Assembly (NCBI GenBank): GCA_945906305.1
Contig: CAMDQT010000005.1
Span: 1-64,000 of the forward strand
Direction: 5' to 3'
Origin: Ferrithrix thermotolerans DSM 19514
GTDB taxonomy: Bacteria > Actinomycetota > Acidimicrobiia > Acidimicrobiales > CAIXPF01
Length of the DNA stretch: 64,000 bases
Shown here in pieces: positions 10,282 to 13,317 of this stretch. Positions within the stretch are counted from its first letter, which is position 1. The number at the start of each line of letters is the position of its first letter. The notes beneath the pieces were generated by a model that saw only the letters and a program-made list of their open reading frames with translations, ran no database searches and had not been told where the DNA came from. The position numbers and the translations under genes were made by a program.

Positions 10282-11007
10282 ATGAACCGTACGCAGCTGA
10301 TCGAGAAGATCACCGAACACACGGGCGTCGAGAAGAAACAAGTCGCCGCGGTATTGGCTGGCTTTGGCGATGTCTTGCTCGCCACAGTCGCCAAGAACGA
10401 CTCGGTGACGCTTCCCGGCATCGCGAAGTTCACCAAGGTTCAGCGCAAGGCCCGAGTTGGCCGCAACCCTGCCACCGGTGCTCCGGTCAAGATCCCAGCG
10501 AAGAAGGTGGCCAAGGTTACGGCGCTGAAGTCGTACAAGGACACCGTGCTCGGCAGCACCCCCGCACCGAAACTGCAGAAGGTCGCCGCTGCCGTCAAAG
10601 CACCGGCCAAAGCACCCGCCAAAGCTGCCGCAGCAGCCAAAGCACCCGCCAAAGCACCGGCCAAAGCACCGGCCAAAGCTGCCGCACCCGCCAAAGCACC
10701 CGCCAAAGCTGCCGCACCCGCCAAAGCTGCAGCCAAAGCTGCCGCCAAAGCTGCCGCCAAAGCTGCAGCCAAAGCACCCGCCAAGGCACCCGCCGCAGCC
10801 AAAGCACCGGCCAAAGCACCGGTCAAAGCTGCCGCCAAAGCACCCGTCAAAGCACCCGTCAACGCTGCCGCCAAAGCACCGGCCAAAGCACCGGCCAAAG
10901 CACCGGCCAAAGCACCCGTCAAAGCTGCCGCCAAAGCACCGGCTAAGGCACCCGTCAAAGCTGCCGCCAAGGCGCCGGCCAAGGCTCGGGTGGCCAAAAA
11001 GGCCTGA
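10282..11007 (+). CDS. hupB: HU-family nucleoid protein with long Ala/Lys/Pro-rich tail
   Basis: 241 residues. Residues 1-90 form an HU domain (MNRTQLIEKITEHTGVEKKQ, LPGIAKFTKVQRKARVGRNP, VPAK-like VKIPAKKVAKVTA). From about residue 100 to the end it is almost only AKAPAKAP/AKAA repeats ending in VAKKA. Actinobacterial HupB/HupS proteins have such histone-H1-like basic tails, thought to bind and condense DNA and to be modified on lysines. The start has a good ribosome site (GAGGAGA, 6 nt upstream). The body of the DNA-binding arm is conserved. Confidence 0.93.
   Translation: MNRTQLIEKITEHTGVEKKQVAAVLAGFGDVLLATVAKNDSVTLPGIAKFTKVQRKARVGRNPATGAPVKIPAKKVAKVTALKSYKDTVLGSTPAPKLQKVAAAVKAPAKAPAKAAAAAKAPAKAPAKAPAKAAAPAKAPAKAAAPAKAAAKAAAKAAAKAAAKAPAKAPAAAKAPAKAPVKAAAKAPVKAPVNAAAKAPAKAPAKAPAKAPVKAAAKAPAKAPVKAAAKAPAKARVAKKA
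10594..10983 (+). repeat. imperfect tandem repeat encoding the HU tail
   Basis: Repeated 6-, 12- and 15-nt units of the type GCCAAAGCACC(C/G), with GCC and GCT interspersed, encoding PAKA/AAKA. It is prone to slippage, so tail length may vary between strains. It also creates long meaningless frames on the other strand. Confidence 0.9.
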
Positions 11008-11686: not shown

Positions 11687-12781
11687 ATGCTGCTGCCTGA
11701 CTTGTTCCCCACCAGCACGGCGTTTGCCGAGGCGACCGGTTGGAAGATCGAACCCCATGGTGCGTGCAAGGGCGATTTGTGCCTGCCCCTAGCACCAGGC
11801 ACATACCGCGAGGAACGCGTTGACGCCGCGACGGTGGCCGATCGGCTCGGGATGGCAGTCGTACCGGCCGAGGGCGGCGGCCTTTGGGCAATCGGACCCG
11901 AGTCTTTCAGCGGACGGGCCTTGGCCACTGTCGCTGCGCCAGATCTCAAGCTGCAGACCTTCGACGGCAAGGCCTTCGCCCTGTCGTCGCTACGGGGTAC
12001 CCGCATGGTGCTCGTAGCCTGGGCGCCCTATTGAGGCTGTGCCCGCGACCTGCCAGGTTGGCAGGCCTTACGCGCCGAGGTCGCCCCCCTAGGGGTGGAG
12101 ATCGTCACGGTCTGCCTCGAGACCCTCGGGTCCGAGGAAGGTCGAGCTTTCGTCGAAGCGGCCCAGCCCGAACATCCAACGCTGCTCGATGTCGCCCATC
12201 AGGTGGATGCGGCATTCGGTGTGGTCAACATCCCCAACGCCGTCTGGATCGACGAGCACTTCAACATCGTGCGACCGGCAGAACCGGCCTGGCCGGCACC
12301 ACGAGCGACGGGTGCCCGTAGTCCACTCCTGGACTCCGGTGATGCCCGCATAACGGCCATCGCCACTCAAGCCACCCAGATCGTGTCCTGGACCGCCGAC
12401 GAATACGCCAACGCCGTACGCGACTGGGCTCGCAACGGGGCACGCTCGCGCTTCGTGCTCTCCGCCGATGAGGTGATGGCTCGATCGGGCGATCGCGACG
12501 TCGACGGGTCTGCTGCCGCAGCGCATTTCGAATTGGCGCAGCACTTCGAACGAGGCGGCGACCATGACCGCGCCGTGGCCCATTTCCGCTCCGCCCACCA
12601 CCTCGCGCCGGACAACTGGACCTACAAGCGTCAGGCCTGGAGCTTGACCGGACCTGAGGGGCCATTCAGACGTTTTTGGCAGGGCCCCCAAGACGGCCAG
12701 GACTGGGAGTACGACAGCGACTGGCTCGTCGACATCGAATCCTCGGGGCCGCGAACGTACTACCGCCCAACCGAGCTGTGA
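11687..12781 (+). CDS. selenocysteine-containing redoxin (TlpA/AhpC-fold), UGA recoded at 12032-12034
   Basis: One continuous frame of 364 residues if the TGA at 12032-12034 is read as selenocysteine (residue 116). Residues ~82-115 are a classical redoxin entry (PDLKLQTFDGKAFALSSLRG ... VLVAWAPY), and the frame continues G-C-A-R-D-L-P-G-W-Q. The active site is thus U-G-C where cysteine homologues have CGC. Thioredoxin-fold sequence continues to ~residue 215 (VNIPNAVWIDEHFNIV), then a TPR-like segment (AAHFELAQHFERGGDHDRAVAHF) and a Trp/Tyr-rich tail. A SECIS-like hairpin follows the TGA. It likely reduces peroxides or disulfides in the cytoplasm, as no signal peptide is seen. The alternative, a nonsense pseudogene, is unlikely given intact flanks and the hairpin. 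Confidence 0.85.
12035..12076 (+). promoter_or_regulatory. SECIS-like hairpin for UGA recoding in the redoxin gene
   Basis: Core stem CCTGCC (12049-12054) with GGCAGG (12060-12065) and loop AGGTT, 20 nt after the TGA. G is the second loop base, and the loop resembles AGGUCU of E. coli fdhF. Lower helices GCG/CGC (12045-12047/12071-12073) and GGC/GCC (12035-12037/12074-12076) can extend it. The spacing and loop fit the bacterial SECIS model. Confidence 0.75.
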
Positions 12782-13317
12782 GCAAGGGCTCGGTGTACCG
12801 CCCCATCGTGGGCACGCTGGCCTACGTGTGGGACGCGTTCACCGACACCGTGCTGCTCGTGCACCGTAACGCCCGAGACGATGACGAGCACTTCGGCAAA
12901 TACAACGGGCTCGGCGGCAAGCTCGAGCCGAACGAGGACCTAGTCAGCAGCCTGCGGCGCGAGTTACGCGAGGAGGCCTCGATCGAGCTCACCACCTTCG
13001 CCTTACGAGGCAGCATCAGCTGGCCGGGATTCGGTGCCAACGGCGAAGATTGGCTGGGCTTCATATTCGTGGTGCACAGCTGGAGTGGACAGGTCCCGGC
13101 CCTGAACAGCGAAGGCACGCTGTCATGGGTGGCCCGCGCCCGCCTCCTCGACGCCTGTCACGACGACCCGGCCATTCGCGCCGCTGCGGCCTTGCCGATG
13201 TGGGAAGGCGACCGTCACTTCCTCCCCATGGTCTTCGATGCGGACCCGATGCCGTTTTGGGGGGTCATGCCTTACGTCGGCGGCCGGCCGGTTGATTGGC
13301 GTTACTGCCGGGCGTGA
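12778..13317 (+). CDS. Nudix hydrolase (8-oxo-dGTP diphosphatase-like)
   Basis: 179 residues from GTG 12778, which overlaps the redoxin stop codon (GTGA), implying translational coupling. The Nudix box is clear: GLGGKLEPNEDLVSSLRREL followed by REEASIEL, about residues 45-72, with Glu residues for Mg binding. MutT-type proteins of this pattern hydrolyse oxidised nucleotides, but the substrate is unproven. Being downstream of a putative Sec peroxidase suggests an oxidative-damage operon. Its 3' end overlaps the convergent DMT gene by 16 nt. Confidence 0.88.
   Translation: MSKGSVYRPIVGTLAYVWDAFTDTVLLVHRNARDDDEHFGKYNGLGGKLEPNEDLVSSLRRELREEASIELTTFALRGSISWPGFGANGEDWLGFIFVVHSWSGQVPALNSEGTLSWVARARLLDACHDDPAIRAAAALPMWEGDRHFLPMVFDADPMPFWGVMPYVGGRPVDWRYCRA

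Follow-up and report, generated by a model that had tools for sequence, protein, structure and literature searches.

A predicted UGC-type selenoprotein of the known WAxxUGC_long family, with a conserved SECIS hairpin inside its coding sequence, in a Ferrithrix genome

Introduction

Selenoproteins carrying a U-G-C active site are already on record. A 2008 Global Ocean Sampling survey lists 'Prx-like (UGC-containing)' selenoproteins (PMC2398784), and a 2026 review has an entry for a 'UGC-containing TlpA disulfide reductase family' (PMC13188914). By their description, these proteins share with the one reported here the UGC motif, an AhpC-TSA/TlpA domain and the existence of Cys homologues. The closest curated entry is NCBIfam NF041054 (WAxxUGC_long), an equivalog named 'ResA-like WAxxUGC motif-containing protein', which has the same UGC motif and the same length. 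A literature search for 'WAxxUGC' returned no paper, nor did searching the literature yield a functional description of the family.

Here we report the computational analysis of a gene located in a 64,000-nucleotide stretch of the Ferrithrix thermotolerans DSM 19514 assembly, the whole of which is referred to below as the window. A sequence-only reading of this DNA had proposed a candidate selenoprotein that would form, together with a Nudix gene, a compact and little-described unit. On comparative grounds, we assign a probability of about 0.96 to the gene encoding a selenoprotein of the NF041054 family, which makes the finding a correct rediscovery of a known selenoprotein family. The qualification 'little-described' has to be dropped, because the curated NF041054 equivalog covers the whole protein and selenoproteins of the UGC type have been published.

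Results

Coding frame and family membership

The gene starts with an ATG at 11687 and ends with a stop codon at 12779-12781. In between, the frame is open apart from a sole internal stop, TGA 12032-12034, just as the sequence-only reading had it. Translation with TGA read as U renders a protein of 364 residues, in which the internal TGA corresponds to residue 116, and leaves a second TGA as the terminal codon. This protein scored 455.8 bits against the NF041054 model (cut-off 300), with residues 1-362 aligning to positions 1-352 of 354, and we found nothing excluding membership. The same model matches 24 of 396 sampled genomes of the phylum, 13 of them above the cut-off. The features of the locus are collected in Table 1.

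Table 1. Location of the predicted selenoprotein gene, its elements and its Nudix neighbour (positions in the window)
Feature	Position	Strand	Evidence
Predicted selenoprotein gene, NF041054 (WAxxUGC_long) family	11687..12781	+	TGA=U translation, 364 residues + stop; NCBIfam match
N-terminal domain, residues 1-78, alpha/beta, with Cys27 and Cys32 (ACKGDLC)	11687..11920	+	AlphaFold2 model, pLDDT 85
Redoxin domain, ResA/TlpA-like thioredoxin fold, residues 83-196	11933..12274	+	AhpC-TSA, model, ResA match
In-frame TGA, predicted selenocysteine 116, motif WAPY-U-GC	12032..12034	+	96 TGA, 11 TGC, 5 TGT among 112 loci
Predicted bacterial SECIS hairpin, stem CTGCC/GGCAG, loop AGGTT	12050..12064	+	Family conservation, covariation, synonymous constraint
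C-terminal helical module with TPR-like stretch, residues 237-364	12395..12778	+	Weak TPR matches, model helices
Nudix hydrolase gene, neighbour	12778..13317	+	Pfam NUDIX 3.3e-11; GTG start overlaps TGA stop (GTGA)

Domain architecture and likely chemistry

Redoxin sequence was indeed recognized on either side of the TGA, with a Pfam AhpC-TSA match at E=4.9e-12 over residues 83-193, and the codon itself lies at the redoxin active site (W-A-P-Y-U-G-C). The model of this domain reached a mean pLDDT of 94, matched ResA with a Foldseek E of 6e-10 and superimposed on the ResA structure 1st9_A with a VIA Z of 13.8 (rmsd 2.5, 136 residues); as modelled, the domain has a thioredoxin fold of the ResA/TlpA type (VIA Z 13-14, with about 137 residues aligned). 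The active site itself is a UxC (U116-G117-C118), one residue short of CxxC/UxxC, and does not conform to the TlpA/ResA motif. Across 107 distinct aligned homologues, C27, C32, U/C116 and C118 are invariant, and G117 is present in 99%.

The two flanking domains are less readily placed. The N-terminal one had no Pfam match, and comparison with the PDB retrieved by sequence only a weak type IV-like pilin match (E 0.21) and by fold no convincing solved structure (best Z 2.2), a result that does not make the fold new. The N-terminus (MLLPDLFPTSTAF) is devoid of a long hydrophobic stretch and opens with a strand in the model, as judged by inspection of both sequence and model, and the product is probably cytoplasmic. 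The TPR-like C-terminal extension announced by the sequence-only reading was recovered as weak TPR-like matches at residues 274-313. Rhodococcus plasmids carry a free-standing counterpart of the C-terminal module, with 57% identity over residues 240-320; in the Rhodococcus qingshengii plasmid pLP4 (L133 3001-3243), it lies within a small hypothetical protein.

The fold and the invariant residues are consistent with a ResA/TlpA-like selenol/thiol-disulfide oxidoreductase. In such a protein, the attack on a disulfide or peroxide substrate would fall to Sec116, which sits where the first long helix of the thioredoxin fold begins, with resolution by Cys118 through an intramolecular selenenyl sulfide. 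Electrons may reach Sec116 from the invariant pair Cys27/Cys32, and the helical module at the C-terminus may serve for partner binding. Although the protein is likely a disulfide oxidoreductase, a peroxiredoxin-type peroxidase, with Sec reducing peroxides and either Cys118 or Cys27/32 as the resolving residue, deserves consideration as a clearly less probable function. AhpC-TSA is the best domain match in Pfam, the 2008 marine survey named its group 'Prx-like (UGC-containing)' (PMC2398784), and Prx structures align too (e.g. 5enu_A, Z 12.0). However, ResA, DsbE and TlpA structures score above those of Prx, and the PxxxTxxC motif is absent; among the homologues listed, the residue at -7 from Sec is never Pro and that at -3 is Ala or Ser, not Thr. 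It is because of this missing motif and of the first rank of the ResA/TlpA structures that disulfide reduction is favoured over peroxidase activity. An elaboration of the disulfide oxidoreductase reading, which we put forward only as a tentative and rather unlikely idea, is that of a new multi-centre seleno-oxidoreductase, where electrons would flow from the invariant CxxxxC pair of an N-terminal domain with an undescribed fold to the UxC site of the redoxin domain within one chain and the C-terminal module would pick the partner.

Gene neighbourhood

The coupling to a Nudix gene was the other element of the proposed compact unit. That selenoprotein and Nudix hydrolase constitute one functional, translationally coupled module would agree with the overlap between the GTG start of the Nudix gene and the TGA stop of the selenoprotein gene, and with the conservation of this gene order in two further congeneric genomes, at 78-79% identity. 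Nevertheless, no Nudix relative adjoins the gene at the other loci, most of them with 1.2-1.5 kb of flank, and the adjacency is confined to the window's own genus, where three genomes have it (L023-L025), which renders this arrangement improbable as a functional module. No other neighbour recurred convincingly, the largest cluster spanning 10 of the 112 loci with mixed positions and strands and including reading-frame noise. The compact unit is therefore unsupported, since Nudix adjoins the gene only in the window's genus and no neighbour recurs. Elsewhere in the window, positions 10282-11007 encode an HU-like DNA-binding protein whose C-terminal tail is a long run of Lys/Ala/Pro (KAPAKA) repeats, which we take to resemble mycobacterial HupB.

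Codon usage at residue 116 among homologues

We searched 397 genomes of the same order for homologues (E <= 1e-10) and found relatives in 158 of them (about 40%, Sec and Cys forms pooled). The set aligned for further analysis comprised 112 loci, drawn from 33 initial loci and 80 further stretches. At residue 116, these loci carry TGA (96), TGC (11) or TGT (5) and no other codon, so that Cys homologues aligned at the TGA, on which the sequence-only reading depended, do exist. The two closest relatives belong to the same genus, are 83-84% identical and have TGA at this position. A read error as the source of the TGA is excluded, because the codon is also present in these two other congeneric genomes and in about 90 further loci.

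The codon further tracks the presence of selA. This gene was detected in 74 out of 78 sampled genomes carrying the TGA form, but in just 3 out of 16 carrying the Cys form (Fisher p = 4e-10, uncorrected for kinship), and the four exceptions on the TGA side come from assemblies of only 73-83% completeness. In the tree, Sec and Cys forms are intermingled, with at least three changes forced by well-supported branches and five in the best tree, where some long branches meet, leaving the outer group insecurely placed.

Some individual loci depart from the common pattern. One (L109) has U-T-C in place of U-G-C (TGA ACC TGC). Two near-identical genes (L022 and L020) come from MAGs labelled Acidobacteriota and Actinomycetes, one label or bin being probably wrong. 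A further copy of the family (G618:C1:422945-423958) requires readthrough of both a TGA and a TAG and is possibly decaying. A search for viral relatives found none.

A conserved hairpin downstream of the TGA

The hairpin with loop AGGTT that the sequence-only reading had noticed 15 nt after the TGA was confirmed (CTGCC-AGGTT-GGCAG; Table 1), its loop AGGUU beginning 20 nt past the UGA. In the source sequence alone, its stability did not exceed chance (z = 0.38 in a 65-nt region), and all five pairs survive in 43% of synonymous recodings; what makes the hairpin significant is instead how it is conserved and covaries within the family. Of 94 distinct TGA sequences, 93 form all five pairs, and the set includes compensatory stem changes to TTGCC/GGCAA (4) and CTCCC/GGGAG (1) along with G-U variants. 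The first and fourth loop bases are complementary in 91 of these 94 sequences (C-G 70, A-T 12, G-C 9). These bases lie at the third positions of the codons for Pro123 and Gly/Val124, and third-base covariation between residues 123 and 124 is the strongest among the 87 adjacent fourfold-degenerate pairs of the gene. Likewise, residues 122, 121 and 126 occupy the top three ranks of synonymous constraint among 267 columns.

In the published bSECIS model, G occupies the first or second position of a small apical loop, G or U often comes next, and the loop lies 16-37 nt from the UGA (PMC13188914). The AGGUU loop agrees with this model in having G at position 2 and a distance of 20 nt, the G at that position being dictated also by the Gly/Val codon. 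Rfam SECIS_1 (RF00031) found no match in the genome or the window, a silence that is uninformative because the model was equally silent in 14 of 14 control genomes, E. coli included. Among the Cys homologues, at least one pair is lost in 9 of 16 and the hairpin is kept in the other 7. L116, L123 and L124 are among those retaining it, where it is either a relic of a former SECIS or a chance product of the DLPxWQ codons. Collectively, these comparative data identify the hairpin after the TGA as a predicted, conserved SECIS.

The same data bear on whether the TGA could be a true stop, or the gene a pseudogene, with residues 117-364 either unmade or restarted at GTG 12095. ORF calling does split the region into a 116-residue frame and a separate 228-residue frame. 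Yet TGA is found in about 90 diverse loci, the sequence being conserved on either side of it and Cys codons being the only alternatives, synonymous constraint and covariation extend 3' of the TGA, and the TGA form of the gene co-occurs with selA, which makes a genuine stop very improbable.

Selenocysteine machinery of the genome

The source genome (3.10 Mb, 52 contigs, 97.9% complete) was searched family by family for the components of selenocysteine synthesis and insertion. We detected selA (388.9 bits), selB (279.4 bits; its open frame spans 572 aa) and tRNA-Sec (66.9 bits against a cut-off of 47), all on one contig, as well as selD (343.3 bits). The latter carries an in-frame TGA of its own, within SHGAG-U-ACK, a known position for Sec in SelD, and selD would be a second selenoprotein gene of this genome. 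A small-loop hairpin containing GGTG lies 3' of that TGA (contig C41, locus L010). The genome thus holds the set of sel genes that the sequence-only reading presupposed, and with selA, selB, selD and tRNA-Sec present, the organism is predicted to decode UGA as selenocysteine. A changed genetic code with UGA read as Trp or another residue, under which the frame would likewise be open only with TGA as sense, can be practically dismissed, given that only Cys codons and never TGG replace TGA at the site, that the gene's own terminal stop is TGA and that the genome encodes a complete Sec pathway.

Discussion

Selenocysteine is by far the most probable reading of the internal TGA. We envisage that the UGA at 12032-12034 would be decoded by SelB and tRNA-Sec with the aid of the downstream SECIS hairpin. 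Comparison thus confirms, from the bare sequence, a sense reading of the TGA, an outcome that is solid yet unsurprising for a specialist. Of more general use, the locus offers a clean example of covariation for a bacterial SECIS inside a coding sequence. Synonymous third positions are what lets its stem and loop co-vary, and the structure has decayed in many relatives that have Cys for Sec.

Beyond its own family, the predicted protein is best set against the ResA/TlpA/CcmG thiol-disulfide oxidoreductases, with which its central domain shares the fold. It differs from them in having UxC in place of CxxC, in having a sequence where neither a signal peptide nor a membrane anchor is visible, and in bearing additional domains at both the N- and the C-terminus.
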